Shown one piece after another: positions 5,151 to 13,791 of a DNA stretch of 64,000 nt; position 1 is the stretch's first letter; each line of letters begins with the position of its first letter. The stretch comes from Thermocoleostomius sinensis A174 (GTDB lineage: Bacteria; Cyanobacteriota; Cyanobacteriia; Elainellales; Elainellaceae). The stretch is taken from assembly GCF_026802175.1 (NCBI RefSeq), contig NZ_CP113797.1:2209026-2273025 (forward strand), written 5' to 3'. The translations under genes and the position numbers were made by a program. The notes under the pieces were generated by a model. The model was not told the origin of the DNA. It did no database searches and was given only the letters and a program-made list of their open reading frames with translations.

Positions 5151-5198
5151 ACTACTAATTAAACATTCAGTTAAACATTAGATCGGGCATCAGATCGG
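5139..5198. repeat. 12-bp tandem array at the tsaE stop codon
   Basis: Five consecutive 12-base units start at 5139, 5151, 5163, 5175 and 5187. The first two (actactaattaa) are identical. Unit 3 keeps the ttaa end, and units 4 and 5 share 9 of 12 bases with each other. The tsaE stop is the last three bases of unit 1, and unit 2 supplies a second in-frame stop. Confidence 0.75.
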
Positions 5199-5217
5199 GT
5201 TAGCTTTCGACAATGCA

Positions 5218-5913
5218 TTAAGCTCCTTCACCCAGCATGGCAGGTACATCGATCTCTTTGATGCAGGTGGCCCGCGATAGGGAAAGCACACAATCAATGA
5301 TACGGAGCAGATCGCTGAGAGGAATCGCCTCACCCCCTAACAAGTGATCGGCAGCCAGATCCGCTAGAACCTCCGGTGTGCCGACATTGCCGGGATTGAT
5401 CACTGTTACTCCAATCTGCTGCGATCGCAACTCTTCCCGCAAGGAATGCACCACCCCCCGCAACCCAAACTTCGAGGCAGTATTGGCTACTTCTCGGCCA
5501 GAGAAATTATCTCGCCCTGATAGGGAACCCATGAAGACAATTTTAGGATTGTCTGATCGCCGCAACGCAGGCAGCAATGCTTTTACTAAGCGAATAGGAG
5601 CCACTAGGTTGACGACAAGAACTCGCACAATATCTGCATCGGAACAGGCTTCAAAGCGGTATTGGCTCGTGAAGGCATGGGTTTCCCACGTGCCGCCCAT
5701 ATATAGCAACGCATCGAGGGGCGCTTGTCCGATCGCGCTTGCCACTGTTTCCACCCCAGCCAAGTCTGCCAAATCTGCCTGAATCCATTCCCCAATGGGT
5801 GATTTAGTGCGAGATACCGACAGTAAGCGATCGGTCTGGGGGGCTAGATGTTCTGCGACAGCAAGTCCAATGCCACGGCTGGCTCCAGCAACAAGAATGG
5901 TTTTGAATGACAT
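5218..5913 (-). CDS. SDR-family protein with altered active site
   Basis: 231 residues, a short-chain dehydrogenase/reductase fold. The dinucleotide loop GASRGIG is at residues 10-16, the fold Asn at N102 and a Ser at S130. The catalytic YxxxK reads NTASK at 144-148: Lys148 is kept but Asn144 replaces Tyr. The usual NNAG strand is also changed (YMGG, 71-74). Oxidoreductase activity is therefore doubtful; NAD(P) binding may remain. It follows the GNAT gene by 18 bases and is presumably under the same TetR-controlled promoter. Substrate unknown. Confidence 0.85.
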   Translation of the reverse strand: MSFKTILVAGASRGIGLAVAEHLAPQTDRLLSVSRTKSPIGEWIQADLADLAGVETVASAIGQAPLDALLYMGGTWETHAFTSQYRFEACSDADIVRVLVVNLVAPIRLVKALLPALRRSDNPKIVFMGSLSGRDNFSGREVANTASKFGLRGVVHSLREELRSQQIGVTVINPGNVGTPEVLADLAADHLLGGEAIPLSDLLRIIDCVLSLSRATCIKEIDVPAMLGEGA

Positions 5914-5931
5914 GACAGTTCTCTCAATTTA

Positions 5932-6612
5932 CTAAGATTGGGTTAGCCGAAGACCGAACTTCGTTACGCCTGGAAAATCACTATTGAATTGTTCGCTGAA
6001 GTACGCCGCATGGAAGGTTTGATAGGGCTTAAACCCGATCGCCTCATAGGTACGACGTGCTACCTCGTTGCCGTTGATGATCATGATTCCGGCATGAGAG
6101 TGCTGCTGCGATCGGCCTTCCTCCAATAAGGCTTTGAGTAATACCTTGCCTAGACCACGCCCTCGAGCCTCTGGCAACACAGCCACATTTTCAATAATCC
6201 AGGGGGCTTGTGGCGTCAGGAAAAACGGTCGGAGATCCCCGCCCCACAGTTGTAGATAGCGATCGCGAAAGGTCGTTGTTATCTCCTCAGACCAATTCAA
6301 CTCTTGGGCAACCTTGTTAAGACTAGACAGACGAAATGGACAGTAATCCTCTAAGTTGGGAATGTAGCCTGCGGCAGCAGCCACAGGGTTTCCCTGCTCT
6401 TCTAGGACTACGAAATCTGTTACGCCACCCCAATTCGATGCATCGGCTCTCAGCACTGCTTCAATAAATTGCATAGCTCTTATTCCAGTGCCTTGAAGCA
6501 AGTCTTCCCAAAAGCAACGATTCAGTGGCGGCAGGGAGACCTCATAGTCAATTCGGGCTAAGAATGGGATATCTGCGGTTGTGGCTTTGCGAGTCTTTAG
6601 GACGGCATCCAT
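5932..6612 (-). CDS. GNAT-family N-acetyltransferase
   Basis: 226 residues from the ATG at 6612, chosen because GAGGAGA lies just upstream and the longer frame (to 6693) would run through the promoter and operator. Acetyl-CoA motif A, VAVLPEARGRGLGKVLLKAL, sits near residues 145-164 with the R-G-R-G-L-G pyrophosphate loop. RRTYEAIGFKPY near 187-198 is motif B. The N-terminal half (LARIDYEVS, FWEDLLQGTG) is less conserved and probably sets substrate choice. First gene of a two-gene operon with the SDR protein and divergent from tetR, so the true inducer may be a substrate of this enzyme. Substrate unknown. Confidence 0.87.
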   Translation of the reverse strand: MDAVLKTRKATTADIPFLARIDYEVSLPPLNRCFWEDLLQGTGIRAMQFIEAVLRADASNWGGVTDFVVLEEQGNPVAAAAGYIPNLEDYCPFRLSSLNKVAQELNWSEEITTTFRDRYLQLWGGDLRPFFLTPQAPWIIENVAVLPEARGRGLGKVLLKALLEEGRSQQHSHAGIMIINGNEVARRTYEAIGFKPYQTFHAAYFSEQFNSDFPGVTKFGLRLTQS

Positions 6613-6644
6613 CACAGTCTCCTCGAAGAGAGTGTTTATAAAAG

Positions 6645-6657
6645 ATACAATCTGTAT
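6645..6657. promoter_or_regulatory. TetR-type operator, copy 1
   Basis: ATACAATCTGTAT, half-sites ATACA and TGTAT in inverted order. It lies downstream of the -10 box of the GNAT promoter, around the expected transcription start. It matches copy 2 (6695-6707) at 11 of 13 positions, and the centres are 50 bp apart. Confidence 0.65.
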
Positions 6658-6663
6658 GCATCT

Positions 6664-6693
6664 AAAATACAGGGGTTCAATTCTATTCGTCAA
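6664..6693 (-). promoter_or_regulatory. Promoter of the GNAT-SDR operon
   Basis: On the minus strand TTGACG (6693-6688) is followed after 18 bases by TATTTT (6669-6664), a good sigma-70 -35/-10 pair. Both operator copies flank it directly, which is the geometry expected of a repressed promoter. Confidence 0.6.
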
Positions 6694-6694
6694 G

Positions 6695-6707
6695 ATACAG
6701 ACTGTAT
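6695..6707. promoter_or_regulatory. TetR-type operator, copy 2
   Basis: ATACAGACTGTAT is a perfect palindrome around its central base (ATACAG, A, CTGTAT). It abuts the -35 box of the GNAT promoter and lies 58 bp before the tetR start, so it could also mediate autoregulation. Confidence 0.68.
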
Positions 6708-6765
6708 GAATGTTTATGCAAATGTTAGAAATGTTAGTGATATGCTCGATACGTACAAATAAGCT

Positions 6766-7371
6766 ATGCCTGCCAAATTAACCAAGGCGGAGCAAACCCT
6801 GCGTACCCGCCGTGCCATTCTTGATCGGGCCCGTCATTTGTTTGCAACAAATGGGTATACGGCCACCGGAACCGAGGAAATCATCAGCGAATTGGGGATT
6901 ACTCGAGGAGCGTTGTATCACCAATTCCACGACAAGCTGGGCGTGTTCAAAGCCGTAGTGTCTGAAGCCTATGATGAGATAGCCACCTACATCAGCAGCA
7001 AGGTACAGTCACTGGATGATCCGTGGGATCAGTTAGTGATTGGCTGTCAAGCGTTCTTGGAAGTTGCTCACCAAGAGGAATTACGACGACTAGTGTTCAT
7101 CGAAGCTCCAGCCGTGTTAGCAGCAGATACCTTAGTTGAGTTTGATCAGCATGGCTTTGGTCTATTGCATGAGGCAATTCAAACAGTCGTTGCGCAAGGA
7201 AAGCTGAACACAATCGATGCAGAGGGGTTTGCCCATTTAGTGAATGGTGCGCTGAATGAATTGGCGGCATGGATAGCGCAATCCAATGATCCCGATCGGT
7301 TAAAGACGGCTCAACAGTTAGTTGAAACCCTATTAATTCGGCATCAGAATAGTCCTGAGAACAGTGCTTGA
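6766..7371 (+). CDS. TetR-family transcriptional regulator
   Basis: 201 residues. The N-terminal helix-turn-helix spans about residues 15-60: RRAILDRARHLFATNGYTAT, then EEIISELGITRGALYHQFHD with the TetR recognition helix. The C-terminal ligand domain (65-195) resembles TetR members with FIEAPAVL. It is divergently transcribed from the GNAT-SDR operon; two copies of an ATACA-N3-TGTAT palindrome lie between them. A repressor of that operon, and perhaps of itself, is the simplest reading. The ligand is unknown. Confidence 0.93.
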   Translation: MPAKLTKAEQTLRTRRAILDRARHLFATNGYTATGTEEIISELGITRGALYHQFHDKLGVFKAVVSEAYDEIATYISSKVQSLDDPWDQLVIGCQAFLEVAHQEELRRLVFIEAPAVLAADTLVEFDQHGFGLLHEAIQTVVAQGKLNTIDAEGFAHLVNGALNELAAWIAQSNDPDRLKTAQQLVETLLIRHQNSPENSA

Positions 7372-7405
7372 CGTGGCTGAATAACGCGATGATGTTGAGA
7401 GGATG

Positions 7406-7422: not shown

Positions 7423-7571
7423 GGATATTTAAGCATTCTACGCTAGCTTTCCCCCATGGCGGCAACCAGAAGCTCCCGTTCTCTTTTCTCGGAAAAAAGT
7501 TGGAACTAGGGCAAACCCTCCGGTTAAGCTCTAGGGTATCAGACACATACGATCGCCCAAAGTTCACCCCC

Positions 7572-9107
7572 ATGAACCAAACAGTCATTATCATTGGCAG
7601 CGGCATCGGTGGTTTAAGCTGTGCTGCCTTGTTAGCCCGTTATGGCTTTAACGTCACCGTTTGCGAAAGCCACTCGATCGCTGGAGGAGCCGCCCATGCC
7701 TTCGAGCGCCAGGGGTTTATCTTTGATTCTGGCCCATCTCTCTATTCTGGGTTGTCCTATCGCCCTTCACCCAATCCCCTACGGCACGTGTTAGACGCGA
7801 TCGGGGTTGATGTAAATTGGGTCACGTACGACACCTGGGGCTGTTTTTTGCCAGAAGGAGACTTTGAAACCTCTGTAGGAGCCGATCAGTTTTGCCAAGT
7901 ATTGTCTCAACTACGCGGTTCCACAGCAGTCTCCGAATGGCGTTACCTTCAACAGGTGATGGAACCGTTGGCCAACGCCGCCGTTGCTATGCCTCCAGCC
8001 GCCGTGCGGTTTGATTGGGGAGCCGCTTTGACGATCGCCCCGTTTGCGTGGTCATTAGCGAGCCACGCTCCCAATATTTTGAAACTGACTGGACCCTTTA
8101 GTCGGATCATGGACGGCATCATCCATGATCCGTTTTTGCGCAACTGGCTGGATCTGTTGAGTTTTCTGTTGTCGGGGTTACCTGCCAACGGTACAAGTGC
8201 GGCTGAAATGGCGTTTATGTTTGCCGACTGGTATCGCCCCGGTGTCAAGCTCGATTATCCGATCGGCGGCAGTGGAGCGTTGGTGAATGCGTTGGTGCAA
8301 GGCTTGGAAAAACACGGCGGCAGAGTGTTGCTGAATGCGCATGTTGAGCAGATTGTAGTCGAGGACGATCGGGCGGTAGGGGTGCGGTTGCGCACGGGGC
8401 AAACGCTGCGAGGGCGAGCGATTATTTCTAACGCTTCGGTGTGGGATACGCTGAAGCTATTGCCAGAGGGGGCTGTGCCTAAACAGTTCGTGGAAACGCG
8501 ACAAGCCACACCTGAATGCGACAGTTTTATGCATTTACATCTCGGCATTGATGCGACTGGACTATCCCCGGAGCTAGCGTGCCACCATATTATTGTTAAC
8601 GATTGGAGCCAGGGCGTTACGGCTCCTCAAAATGTGGTGCTGATTTCAATTCCCTCGTTGCTTGATCCCGCTCTTGCACCTCCCGGCAAACACACCATTC
8701 ATGTCTATACTCCTGGCAATGAACCCTATGATCTGTGGCAGGGGATGGATCGTCATCGTGAAGCGTATACCCAACAGAAACATGCCCGATCGCAGGTGAT
8801 GTGGCAAGCGCTGGAACGAGTGATCCCTGATATTCGATCGCGCTGTGAAGTTTCACTGGTGGGAACGCCTTTGACCCATGAACGCTACTTGCGTCGCCAT
8901 CGGGGATCATATGGCCCGGCCATTCGCGCTGGTGAAGGAATGTTTCCTGTCCCCACTACTCCCTTAGCAGGGTTACTATGCTGCGGGGATTCAACGTTCC
9001 CTGGTATTGGATTGCCAGCGGTAGCCGCTAGCGGCATGATTGCAGCGAATACGCTGGCTCCGGTTTCCAAACATTTGGACATGCTGAACGCGCTCGGCTA
9101 TCGGTGA
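7572..9107 (+). CDS. Phytoene desaturase/carotenoid isomerase-type FAD oxidoreductase
   Basis: 511 residues from ATG 7572; the frame opens 24 codons earlier, but the FAD strand starts right after this ATG. The dinucleotide loop GSGIGG is at residues 9-14, followed by FNVTVCESHSIAGGAAHAFE. The middle has GGSGALVNALVQGLEKHGG and RGRAIISNASVWD, the substrate-family signature. The C-terminal FAD motif reads GLLCCGDSTFPGIGLPAVAASG. This is the CrtI/CrtISO/retinol-saturase superfamily. It could act on carotenoids, but relatives vary in substrate, so no symbol is given. No other carotenoid gene is nearby. Confidence 0.88.
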   Translation: MNQTVIIIGSGIGGLSCAALLARYGFNVTVCESHSIAGGAAHAFERQGFIFDSGPSLYSGLSYRPSPNPLRHVLDAIGVDVNWVTYDTWGCFLPEGDFETSVGADQFCQVLSQLRGSTAVSEWRYLQQVMEPLANAAVAMPPAAVRFDWGAALTIAPFAWSLASHAPNILKLTGPFSRIMDGIIHDPFLRNWLDLLSFLLSGLPANGTSAAEMAFMFADWYRPGVKLDYPIGGSGALVNALVQGLEKHGGRVLLNAHVEQIVVEDDRAVGVRLRTGQTLRGRAIISNASVWDTLKLLPEGAVPKQFVETRQATPECDSFMHLHLGIDATGLSPELACHHIIVNDWSQGVTAPQNVVLISIPSLLDPALAPPGKHTIHVYTPGNEPYDLWQGMDRHREAYTQQKHARSQVMWQALERVIPDIRSRCEVSLVGTPLTHERYLRRHRGSYGPAIRAGEGMFPVPTTPLAGLLCCGDSTFPGIGLPAVAASGMIAANTLAPVSKHLDMLNALGYR

Positions 9108-10686: not shown

Positions 10687-11262
10687 ATGAACCAACTGAC
10701 ACTGGAATGGCTAGAGGCAGGTCAGGTTAGAACCCATACAATTCAAGCTCAACAAGCAACGAAGCAACCAGGAAGTTTTCGCATTGGTCGTGATCCAAGC
10801 CAGTGTGATTTAGTCATTCAACATCCGACGGTTTCGAAACTGCATGTCGAAATCTTTTTTGCGCCTCAACAGCCTGGGTTCTTTTTGCGCAATCTGCGCG
10901 AACCAAATCCACCGTTGGTCGATCAAAAGCGGGTGATTCAAGGAATTGCTCAACTACATCAAGGTAGCCAAATTCGGTTGGGGGAACTGGATATAACGGT
11001 GCAGTCAGTTGAAGTGGCAGTGGTATTGCCAGCAACCGTGGTGGCTGTTCCCCAACCGCGATCGCCCCAACCTGTTCATGCCCATCGATCGCCCCAACCG
11101 CAACCCGACCCAGCACCTCAACCGGTCGTCAATCTCTCCTATGGGCTGCAATGTCCCAAGTGTCACCACGTATCCACCTATGACCGGTTGCAAGTAGGTT
11201 GTGCCTGGTGTGGAACATCTTTAGCTGCCGCTCCTAGTGTGCTACTAGCTCCGGGTAGTTAA
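10687..11262 (+). CDS. FHA-domain protein with C-terminal zinc ribbon
   Basis: 191 residues. The FHA domain spans about 10-105: FRIGRDPSQCDLVIQHPTVSKLHVEI gives the GR, S and H positions of phosphothreonine binding. A proline-rich linker (about 118-150) follows, then a zinc-ribbon-like element with C156/C159 and C172/C175 (CPKCHHV, CAWCGTSL). FHA domains read phosphothreonine marks made by Ser/Thr kinases. The zinc ribbon may bind a partner. The next gene also starts with an FHA domain, 59 bp on, so the two likely work in one pathway. Function otherwise unknown. Confidence 0.87.
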   Translation: MNQLTLEWLEAGQVRTHTIQAQQATKQPGSFRIGRDPSQCDLVIQHPTVSKLHVEIFFAPQQPGFFLRNLREPNPPLVDQKRVIQGIAQLHQGSQIRLGELDITVQSVEVAVVLPATVVAVPQPRSPQPVHAHRSPQPQPDPAPQPVVNLSYGLQCPKCHHVSTYDRLQVGCAWCGTSLAAAPSVLLAPGS

Positions 11263-11321
11263 GTGGCTCAACTCCCATCATTTTTTCTATTCACCACGCG
11301 CTTAACCGAAGGGATCGCATT

Positions 11322-13286
11322 ATGCAGATTCAATTGACCTGGGAAGATCCGGCTACCGGAGAGCGACGATCGCCAATACTATCGGTTCCTATCGCGTTGG
11401 GGCGCGAGTTTGCCCGTTTACCCGATACACTCAACCGTCAGCGGGTGGCACGCATTGTTCTAGAAAGTGGGCAGGTGTCTCGCTATCATGCCCTGATCGA
11501 GCAAGAAGGCACGGGGATTGTCATAACGGATCAAGGCAGTTCCAACGGTATTTTCATCAATGGCACTCGGCAGGGGCGCAGTTTTCTGTCTACAGGCGAT
11601 ATCGTGCAAATTGGGCCCTACCAAATTTCCATTGCCTTAGCGGGGGCCGCCACACCTCAACCTCGCAGTGGCTCTACGATTATTTTTCATCCCGAAACCG
11701 ATCTACCCGTTCCGGCTTCCCCTGCGCCGCCCGTGTCTCCCACAGCCCCCGCGTTCCCGCCACCGCTGTTCCAAGCACAACAGGTCTCGATTCAAGACCT
11801 GTTGCATATAGGCTTTCCCGTTCAAGAATTTGACTATGCTGCATTGGGGGCTGGGTTGGGCAGTTTCATCTGGGTCGATTTATTGCGAATTGGTGGCGTT
11901 CGTACTAGTCAAATTGTGGCGCTGGGTATTGAAAAGGTTCCGTATGCGCGCTATCAGCGGCTCTGTGTCAATTCTCAAATTCCGCCCCATGAACGCTTGC
12001 GATCGAATTCTGATTCCTGTCCTGACAATATTTGGGGTTGGCCCAGCTATGCTCTGCGTGAATCTTGGCATGATTTTTGGAAGGGTAACCTCGGAGAAGC
12101 GTTCAAGCATTTGTGGCAAGTATTCGGTGAACCCACGTTTGCTGAAACCTATACCCCCCGATCGGGCAATGTATTTGCCTCAATCGATCGAGAAGCCAAG
12201 CGCATTGGCTGGGATGAAATCTATCGCTATGGACGGATTCGGGGCATTCGCAAAACGGATGATGGTCGCTATGTCATTGCCTATTCGCAAGCCTCGGCGA
12301 ACCGTCGCGATTATGGCTTCATCGTGGCGCGGTATGTGCATTTAGCCACAGGCTATCCTGGCATTCAAGTTCTGCAAGATCTCCAGGATTACCGCGAACG
12401 GACAAAAGATTTCAAGACCGTTGTTAATGCTTACGAAGAACACGAACACGTTTACAAGCACCTAGAGCAACAAGGCGGTACGGTGATGATTCGCGGTCGG
12501 GGCATTGTGGCGTCGCGCATCGTGCAGCGAATTTATGAAGTTCGCAAAAACAATCCCACCGTCAATGTAGCGCTGCTGCACTTGTTGCGATCGGCAAAAC
12601 CACAGGGCAATCGCTTTGGCAAAGCTCAACGGGCGGTTAAAAATTACTATGAGCTACAGCCCTTTAATTGGCCCAAGGCCTGTTGGGGGGGGGATTTGCG
12701 CGTCATGTTGGAGTCGGCCAGCCCCGCAGAACGGCAGCGGCTTTTGGCAGACTGGGGCGGCACCACCACCGCCGATCGAGTGGACTGGCAAACCATTGCC
12801 CGGCAAGGTCTCGAGCAAGGATGGTATCAGATTGTATTTGGTGATGTGGAGAAGGTAGAACCTAACGGACAAGGGGGAACTATTACCTACATTAAGGAAA
12901 AAGAGTTTAAAGGCAAGCTGGAACTGAACGCTGACTTTATTATTGATGCGACGGGATTAGATGCCAAGGTGAAAACCAATCCACTGTTAGATGATTTAGT
13001 CAATCACTACCAATTACCCATTAATCCACTGGGACGGTTAGCTGTCTCGAATGACTTTGAGTTAACCGAGATGCGATCGGGGGGGCAAGGACGCATGTAC
13101 GCGGCTGGAGCGATGACATTGGGCGGACCCTATGCGGCTGTTGATAGTTTCCTAGGTCTGCAATTTGCAGCACTGCGATCGGTAGATGACCTCGCCAAAC
13201 ATCGCGCTCCGCGCCTGCATCGCACCAATGGCGTAGGGTCAGTGGTTCAGTGGTTGAAGTGGGTATTCAATCAGTCTCCAAATTGA
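11322..13286 (+). CDS. FHA domain fused to a flavin monooxygenase-like protein
   Basis: 654 residues. An FHA domain (about 1-110; VSRYHALIEQ, GSSNGIFINGTRQG) is joined by a Pro/Ala-rich linker (about 112-150) to a two-dinucleotide oxidoreductase. A GAGLGS loop near 172-177 fits FAD, and GRGIVASRIVQRIYEV near 393-408 fits NAD(P). ADFIIDATGLDAKV (about 539-552) and a late AAGAMTLGGPYAAVDSF (about 593-609) complete the fold. The enzyme part resembles FAD/NAD(P) proteins of the ornithine-monooxygenase type. The FHA domain suggests recruitment by or response to protein phosphorylation. Substrate unknown. Confidence 0.82.
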   Translation: MQIQLTWEDPATGERRSPILSVPIALGREFARLPDTLNRQRVARIVLESGQVSRYHALIEQEGTGIVITDQGSSNGIFINGTRQGRSFLSTGDIVQIGPYQISIALAGAATPQPRSGSTIIFHPETDLPVPASPAPPVSPTAPAFPPPLFQAQQVSIQDLLHIGFPVQEFDYAALGAGLGSFIWVDLLRIGGVRTSQIVALGIEKVPYARYQRLCVNSQIPPHERLRSNSDSCPDNIWGWPSYALRESWHDFWKGNLGEAFKHLWQVFGEPTFAETYTPRSGNVFASIDREAKRIGWDEIYRYGRIRGIRKTDDGRYVIAYSQASANRRDYGFIVARYVHLATGYPGIQVLQDLQDYRERTKDFKTVVNAYEEHEHVYKHLEQQGGTVMIRGRGIVASRIVQRIYEVRKNNPTVNVALLHLLRSAKPQGNRFGKAQRAVKNYYELQPFNWPKACWGGDLRVMLESASPAERQRLLADWGGTTTADRVDWQTIARQGLEQGWYQIVFGDVEKVEPNGQGGTITYIKEKEFKGKLELNADFIIDATGLDAKVKTNPLLDDLVNHYQLPINPLGRLAVSNDFELTEMRSGGQGRMYAAGAMTLGGPYAAVDSFLGLQFAALRSVDDLAKHRAPRLHRTNGVGSVVQWLKWVFNQSPN

Positions 13287-13374: not shown

Positions 13375-13791
13375 ATGACTCCTACTCTCATCGGACGCTG
13401 GCAAACTCGGATTCTACTATTTGCGATCGTTGGTTCATTGGTGTCGCTACCTTTTTTTCTAATAACTGGTAACGATCCTATCTTTTTTATTATCTTGCTG
13501 TATATTGCTGGATTCGGTTTAGTTTGGGATGTTCTGTATAACTACTTGCAGCAGTTTCGCTGGGATCACGATTGGCCAGCCGCGTTACAGGTACTTGCGG
13601 CCCTTTGGGAGGGTATCTTTTTTGCAATTGTGTATAAGCTAGTGCCGCTACCTGGTGTAGAGCGGCAGGCTCCACTGTGGCTCTTTGCACTGCATTATGG
13701 TTTAGCGTGGTTGGCCATCTTCATTGCCTCTCAGAGTATTATGCGAGTCATTTTTCCACGCTGGCGCTTTCACGGTGGGCAGTGGCTCTGA
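13375..13791 (+). CDS. Conserved four-helix membrane protein
   Basis: 138 residues with about four hydrophobic segments: 13-33, 38-60, 72-92 and 102-126. The loops contain RFRWDHDWP-like charged residues (QFRWDHDWPAALQ near 59-71) and a final basic tail. I recognise the style of a cyanobacterial conserved inner-membrane protein but no named family. It follows the FHA-flavoprotein by 88 bp on the same strand and may share its transcript. Confidence 0.75.
   Translation: MTPTLIGRWQTRILLFAIVGSLVSLPFFLITGNDPIFFIILLYIAGFGLVWDVLYNYLQQFRWDHDWPAALQVLAALWEGIFFAIVYKLVPLPGVERQAPLWLFALHYGLAWLAIFIASQSIMRVIFPRWRFHGGQWL

Follow-up and report, generated by a model that had tools for sequence, protein, structure and literature searches.

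Within a 64,000-nucleotide stretch of Thermocoleostomius sinensis A174 (NZ_CP113797.1), hereafter the window, whose positions serve as coordinates, we identified a unit of three genes in which an FHA-flavoprotein fusion and a four-helix membrane protein are co-inherited with near-perfect pairing. The three genes, of which the first encodes an FHA and zinc-ribbon protein, are best explained as encoding one device. On balance, we lean towards a reading in which this device is a membrane-docked enzyme (or redox sensor) that works with reduced nicotinamide adenine dinucleotide (phosphate), NAD(P)H, and flavin adenine dinucleotide (FAD), and that is switched by a kinase and by phosphothreonine recognition through FHA domains.

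An initial annotation had described two adjacent FHA proteins, the first with a zinc ribbon and the second encoded 59 base pairs (bp) further on, and both the open reading frames and the Pfam FHA matches agree with this description. A third open reading frame, which that description lacked, follows on the same strand. The unit and its parts are as follows.

10687-11262, plus strand: FHA and zinc-ribbon protein, a candidate adaptor (191 residues; open reading frame; Pfam FHA, E 7e-13)
10780-10983, plus strand: FHA domain of the zinc-ribbon protein, residues 32-99 (Pfam; conserved residues)
11152-11211, plus strand: zinc ribbon CxxC-x12-CxxC, residues 156-175 (sequence; cysteine conservation)
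11322-13286, plus strand: FHA-flavoprotein fusion (654 residues; open reading frame; homologues)
11436-11615, plus strand: FHA domain of the fusion, residues 39-98 (Pfam, E 8.4e-14; R28, S53, H56 and N75 conserved)
11685-11699, plus strand: linker motif F-H-P-E-T, residues 122-126, pattern F[NHD]PxT (23 of 29 linkers)
11814-13229, plus strand: predicted flavoprotein domain with two dinucleotide-binding parts, residues 165-636 (AlphaFold2, Foldseek, VIA-align)
11847-11864, plus strand: FAD-type Rossmann motif GAGLGS, residues 176-181 (invariant Gly/Ser, 51 of 51 rows)
12495-12515, plus strand: NAD(P)-type Rossmann motif GRGIVAS, residues 392-398 (invariant positions, 51 of 51 rows)
13230-13265, plus strand: C-terminal Trp-rich helix, residues 637-648, a candidate membrane or partner contact (AlphaFold2 helix; invariant residues)
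13375-13791, plus strand: four-helix membrane protein, the steady partner (138 residues; AlphaFold2; co-occurrence)

The flavoprotein and the membrane protein are inherited together

Among 386 sampled genomes of the window's phylum, Cyanobacteriota, the flavin domain was detected in 61 (matches at E <= 1.6e-173), the membrane protein likewise in 61 and both genes in 60, a pairing for which Fisher's test gives p 2.5e-68, a value that serves as a guide only, the genomes being related. A further 75 genomes matched the FHA end only, among the matches listed. The window's genome has five psbA genes above the NCBIfam cut-off, a family detected only in Synechococcus among 14 control genomes, and this is the ground on which the sampled genomes are called cyanobacterial. 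The membrane gene stands without the flavoprotein in G385, in two pieces with internal stops (G385:C1:3657581-3658011), and from its sequence it looks like a gene that decayed after loss of its partner. Two flavoprotein copies were found in G000, G174, G255 and G284, with up to three candidates scored per genome, and it is these same genomes that yielded two membrane-gene matches, besides the broken G385 copy. The window's genome itself harbours a second complete set (locus L034). When maximum-likelihood trees were built for the flavin domain (54 rows) and for the membrane protein (41 rows), each separated Cyanobacteriota from Actinomycetota with full support, and one 11-row cyanobacterial lineage was common to the two (support 83/89, a moderate value, and 100/99). 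Because the window copy falls outside this lineage and the L034 copy inside it, the set as a whole appears to have been duplicated long ago.

Gene order was analysed at 31 cyanobacterial loci (30 fetched, plus the window), all of which contain the flavoprotein. A profile search in all frames located the membrane gene in 27 of them, in one case as part of an odd frame at L055, the second copy of G255, which was excluded from the 30-row alignments. Among the 25 placed genes, 23 lie downstream of the flavoprotein on the same strand, with gaps of -4 to 2357 bp; the remaining two are on the opposite strand (L044) and upstream (L058). The L055 frame (5179-7386, 735 codons) matches the flavoprotein to about residue 518 and then the membrane protein; it may be a true fusion or a decayed gene.

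The lead to Actinomycetota came from PLSDB, which contained one relative of the flavin domain, on a Nonomuraea record (11.9 Mb, labelled plasmid I). The actinobacterial relatives include Nonomuraea, Actinomadura, Nocardia, Gordonia, relatives of Frankia, Micromonosporaceae and others, and the loci analysed are the best 80 of 401 relatives from one genome scan, all Actinomycetota by record title; our coverage thus comprises Cyanobacteriota and Actinomycetota. The membrane gene comes right after the flavoprotein gene in 79 of these 80 loci, with a median gap of 13 bp (37 measured), and the sequence of the last, L078, stops 11 bases past the match. Among 296 genomes spread around a Nocardia genome, nine gave strong matches (that genome included) and three weak ones (E >= 3.2e-5); the module is patchy in this group.

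AlphaFold2 modelled the membrane protein as four long helices (mean predicted local distance difference test score, pLDDT, 87.1), for which we found no fold match in the PDB (best E 4.4) and no Pfam match up to E 1. Its N- and C-terminal stretches carry two and three Lys/Arg residues, respectively. Since positively charged ends face the cytosol under the positive-inside rule, both termini should lie on the cytosolic side and, by helix parity, so should the WDHDWP loop. The termini and this loop are also the stretches richest in invariant residues across 38 rows, with GRWQTR, WDHDWP and RWRxxGG as the conserved stretches, and an invariant glutamate, E79, lies inside a predicted helix. A bis-histidine haem protein was considered as the identity of the membrane protein and dropped, given that no histidine is invariant in the 38 rows.

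The flavin domain is predicted to contain two Rossmann domains and is fused to FHA in cyanobacteria

The FHA domain of the flavoprotein lies above the curated Pfam cut-off (20.7 bits, against which the two window proteins score 49.2 and 52.2 bits) and is followed, behind a Pro-rich linker, by a flavin-type part of about 490 residues for which the window protein gave no Pfam match up to E 1 and no NCBIfam match. The FHA domain shares an open frame with the flavin domain in all 61 cyanobacterial genomes that encode the latter, in 52 as one alignment and in nine as two pieces with unchanged open-frame length; judged from these sequences, the joint is therefore neither a chance event nor an assembly artefact. 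No FHA domain fused to the flavin domain was found in the 80 actinobacterial loci. We also noted FHA proteins that stand alone, with about 200 codons and 45-48% identity to the flavoprotein FHA (G019:C14:38041-38361, G042:C1:4968466-4968780, G027:C1:3279938-3280264 and others), some of them in genomes without the flavoprotein (G027, G213, G360).

An AlphaFold2 model built on a two-phylum alignment of 51 rows (the window protein and 50 actinobacterial relatives) gave block pLDDT values mostly of 75-97 across residues 151-654, with residues 431-460 below 60. Foldseek against the PDB returned 453 matches at E <= 0.001, headed by SidA (E 3.8e-17, TM score 0.70 by target) with PvdA and DfoA next. 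Re-examination of these matches by VIA-align over model residues 167-637 gave Z 24.4 for PvdA (387 residues aligned, 3.9 Å) and 24.3 for DfoA (396, 3.6 Å). The SidA/PvdA/DfoA fold was thus recovered, and the same list holds other flavoproteins with that fold. The modelled domain comprises both an FAD-type and an NAD(P)-type Rossmann domain, whose motifs are strictly conserved: G176, G178, G180 and S181 of GxGxGS, and G392, G394, I395, V396 and S398 of GxGIVxS, are present in 51 of 51 rows. Equally invariant are D542, T544, G545 and L546, and in the C-terminal helix S640, Q643, W644 and W647 do not vary; invariant columns are numerous and distributed over the entire flavin domain.

Sequence models placed the domain in none of the families searched. 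Even with E allowed up to 1, none of 51 members matched a Pfam model of the N-hydroxylating monooxygenases, and the corresponding NCBIfam models were not matched by the window protein or three relatives. Trp_halogenase gave weak Pfam matches in 6 of the 51 members (best 1.2e-4), which we put down to general flavoprotein similarity. A sequence search of the PDB returned credible matches to the FHA part alone, the few others being weaker than E 1.

Both FHA proteins retain the phosphothreonine-contact residues

We take GR, SxxH and NG to be the phosphothreonine-contact residues of FHA domains. In the flavoprotein FHA, R28 and N75 are kept in 29 of 30 cyanobacterial homologues, and S53 and H56 in all 30. 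The FHA of the zinc-ribbon protein, also above the curated cut-off, keeps R35, S50, H53, N69 and N74 in 26 of 26 homologues, with N74-P75 standing where NG is expected. In its zinc ribbon (C156, C159, C172 and C175), C156 and C172 are invariant among the 26 homologues and C175 is present in 25, and C159 is not universal.

A homologue of the zinc-ribbon protein was found in 26 of the 31 cyanobacterial loci; of the 30 loci for which position was recorded, 26 have it upstream of the flavoprotein and on the same strand. Within the 30-row set the gene is missing from L050, L051, L052 and L056, all of which belong to the 11-row lineage. Proteins combining FHA with a zinc ribbon, here C-terminal, were also found in 54 of the 80 actinobacterial loci; the combination is thus seen in both phyla, with its order reversed between them.

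Several genes and segments around this protein recur. A small secreted-looking protein is encoded 3' of the unit in L050, L051, L055 and L056, none of which has the zinc-ribbon gene, and in L056 it weakly matches the YHS domain (E 0.0089, under the cut-off). Upstream of the zinc-ribbon gene, 11 of the 31 loci have a gene, some 220-260 codons long, that presumably resembles endonuclease V (for example, L063 4463-5209). The zinc-ribbon/FHA protein of Actinomycetota starts with a region of at least about 150 residues (L112 8793-10013, L117 8029-9327, L100 4501-6171), which showed no Pfam match in L112 and L117 and no credible PDB sequence match in L117.

The linker between the FHA and flavin domains carries F[NHD]PxT in 23 of 29 sequences, compared with a mean of 0.17 and a maximum of 3 in 2000 rounds of shuffling; the sequences share ancestry, and the statistic accordingly indicates retention, not function (L048 was omitted, its linker being very short). 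As a guess from these sequences, T126 of this motif could be a phosphosite or a docking site. A strict motif, ST[ILV][IVL]F, is present in only 7 of 30 sequences. A phospho-motif search of the actinobacterial linkers returned scattered matches, which we did not use as evidence.

Ser/Thr kinase genes adjoin the unit in some loci

A soluble Ser/Thr kinase of a single family is encoded in 22 of the 80 actinobacterial loci (in L100, Pfam Pkinase at E 6.3e-36). An all-frame search of the 31 cyanobacterial loci revealed five kinase genes, all above the Pfam cut-off and each directly adjoining a gene of the unit. Their positions and accompanying domains are as follows.

L042, 4514-6124: kinase with DUF4189
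L048, 3205-4452: kinase with RDD
L049, 9051-11207: kinase with TPR
L057, 10261-12657: kinase with TPR and PDZ
L058, 4366-6147: kinase with WD40

Kinases thus make up 5 of 71 flanking genes, against about 0.5 expected (P 1e-4 to 3e-4), in a post hoc test whose expectation derives from the 35 kinases of the window's genome and an assumed 4500-5500 genes.

A proposed mechanism and its alternatives

In the mechanism that we propose, the flavoprotein would use NAD(P)H and FAD and would dock on the membrane protein from the cytosolic side, the contact probably being made by the conserved Trp-rich helix at the flavoprotein's C terminus and, on the membrane protein, by the conserved GRWQTR, WDHDWP and RWRxxGG stretches; the assignment of this helix as a membrane or partner contact is a guess. 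A Ser/Thr kinase would phosphorylate a threonine of the flavoprotein linker or of a partner, and the FHA domains of the flavoprotein and of the zinc-ribbon protein would then read phosphothreonine, switching assembly or activity. We favour the view that the flavoprotein and the membrane protein are the working core and that FHA and kinase form a control layer, which, as far as gene content tells, is encoded by separate genes in Actinomycetota and is partly fused in cyanobacteria. The cofactors, the reaction and enzyme activity, the phosphosite and its phosphorylation, the docking and physical contact, and the switch are what we infer from these data.

The initial annotation had proposed an FHA domain joined to an FAD/NAD(P) enzyme, with redox chemistry steered by Ser/Thr phosphorylation. 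Its structural part holds at the level of the predicted fold, which has a core of the flavin-binding type in AlphaFold2, Foldseek and VIA-align, and the phosphothreonine-contact residues are retained in homologues of both FHA proteins (26-30 rows). Its regulatory part is still a proposal, made more likely by the kinase genes that adjoin the unit. As to the fusion and its neighbours, the survey bore out the fusion in cyanobacteria and not in the 80 actinobacterial loci, and revealed a larger unit whose steady partner is the membrane protein.

Several observations weigh against this phosphorylation-switched, membrane-docked enzyme. With respect to the pairing, G278 has the flavoprotein and no membrane gene that we could find, and in 4 of 31 cyanobacterial loci the membrane gene lies outside the fetched DNA, yet elsewhere in those genomes. 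With respect to the switch, 58 of 80 actinobacterial loci lack a kinase of the recurrent family and 26 of 31 cyanobacterial loci yielded no kinase in the all-frame search, while the five that were found differ in architecture and are not of the actinobacterial kind; moreover, of 35 kinase matches above the cut-off in the window's genome, none lies beside either copy, the nearest being about 37 kb away. The linker motif is missing in 6 of 29 linkers. The zinc-ribbon/FHA protein is absent from 26 of 80 actinobacterial loci, 10 with cut flanks and 16 with full ones, and among the latter are L065-L075 (Nonomuraea and kin), which also lack the kinase and the exchanger homologue described below. Finally, AlphaFold2 modelled the FHA part poorly (block pLDDT 36-53), the window protein being the only one of the 51 rows with an FHA.

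The alternatives differ in what they make of the membrane protein, the FHA domains and the flavin. The flavoprotein might instead be a redox sensor, reading the NAD(P)H or oxygen state through FAD and signalling to the membrane protein or, in some genomes, to a cation/proton exchanger, with FHA and kinase supplying a second input; we consider this rather unlikely. Exchanger homologues do occur in 21 of the 80 actinobacterial loci, and 19 of these loci also have the kinase (PF00999 confirmed in one, L113). Among the 31 cyanobacterial loci, the fetched DNA includes Na+/H+ exchangers in two, L038 and L062, and pieces of one in L057; E79, the invariant residue inside one of the membrane protein's predicted helices, would also suit such a role. 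Most loci, however, have no exchanger, and the invariant columns throughout the flavin domain suit an enzyme at least equally well.

Slightly less probable still, in our judgement, is a constitutive scaffold, in which an oxygenase or reductase acting on lipid or quinone is held at the membrane and its FHA binds a fixed partner without phospho-regulation. Such an arrangement would accord with the lack of fused FHA in the actinobacterial homologues and with the lack of a kinase next to either copy in the window's genome, but two separate FHA proteins keep the phosphothreonine-contact residues almost without variation, and kinase genes adjoin the unit in part of the loci of both phyla.

The third alternative concerns the reaction. 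YpdA tops the VIA-align list (Z 26.1, 316 residues aligned, 2.8 Å), and all 30 cyanobacterial rows have C233, an observation that also counts against our preferred reading and would be compatible with a lineage-specific cysteine function. A disulfide reductase of the YpdA/thioredoxin-reductase kind is nevertheless improbable: in the 51 rows no cysteine is conserved in both phyla, the best column reaching 44 of 51 with Ala in the window protein, and the window cysteines 215, 233 and 454 are present in only 1, 2 and 1 rows, respectively. Because no cysteine is conserved across both phyla, the sequences make oxygenation or NAD(P)H oxidation the more likely reaction.

An anti-phage defence module is highly improbable, since the match of the actinobacterial kinase to defence-system kinases in PADLOC looks generic, the other five scanned proteins were unmatched, PADLOC gave no family at E up to 0.01 for any of the window's three proteins, IMG/VR yielded no relative and the trees show co-inherited lineages.

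Elsewhere in the window, positions 7500-9107 encode a divergent carotenoid-isomerase-like flavoprotein (TIGR02730, 305 bits, well under the cut-off of 586.9), for which no cluster of homologues was found in three or more of the other loci.

Relation to known systems

FHA domains, flavoproteins of this type and kinase-FHA switches are known individually. The flavoprotein appears to be new at the family level, given that our Pfam and NCBIfam searches matched no curated model to the flavin domain or to the membrane protein. We found no description of the flavoprotein or the cluster in titles and abstract openings, a search whose coverage mostly excludes subscription journals, and passages of PMC6213207 and PMC7291507 have no bearing on either.

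More tentatively, the unit may represent an undescribed signalling-redox module of Cyanobacteriota and Actinomycetota, in which a new flavoprotein family, obligately complexed with a new membrane protein, moves electrons or oxygenates a membrane substrate under kinase/FHA control, with the reader domain fused onto the enzyme in cyanobacteria. The two proteins, for which no curated family model was found, have remained paired across both phyla and, inside one of these, in two lineages. If our reading is true, it would provide a direct link between Ser/Thr kinase signalling and a membrane flavin redox protein, as well as a specific candidate output for the numerous Ser/Thr kinases of such cyanobacteria; the window's genome alone has 35 kinase matches above the cut-off. 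The unit is, furthermore, a defined gene set amenable to deletion and purification.

The closest resemblance is to the class B N-hydroxylating monooxygenases (SidA, PvdA, DfoA and DesB), which share the predicted fold over about 390 aligned residues and both Rossmann motifs, and whose ATG motif D542, T544, G545 and L546 presumably resemble; they differ in showing only 10-16% identity and no family-model match, and the FHA fusion and membrane partner are found here. YpdA/Bdr and thioredoxin-reductase-like flavoproteins share the fold core (Z 20-26), whereas the present domain is larger, with a low-confidence stretch at 432-454, and has no cysteine common to the two phyla. GarA and OdhI exemplify the FHA switch logic, and the resemblance lies in the FHA sequence match and in a flexible segment with a conserved threonine beside the FHA; in contrast to them, the FHA is here fused to a flavoprotein, and the linker motif lies C-terminal to it and is a candidate phosphosite only. 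In Rv1747-type systems, an FHA membrane system adjoins a Ser/Thr kinase gene, according to the accessible part of PMC3908365, the FHA part being given by a reference title in PMC6213207. The present unit would likewise join an FHA-bearing membrane machine to a kinase gene, with a flavoprotein where Rv1747 is an ABC transporter.

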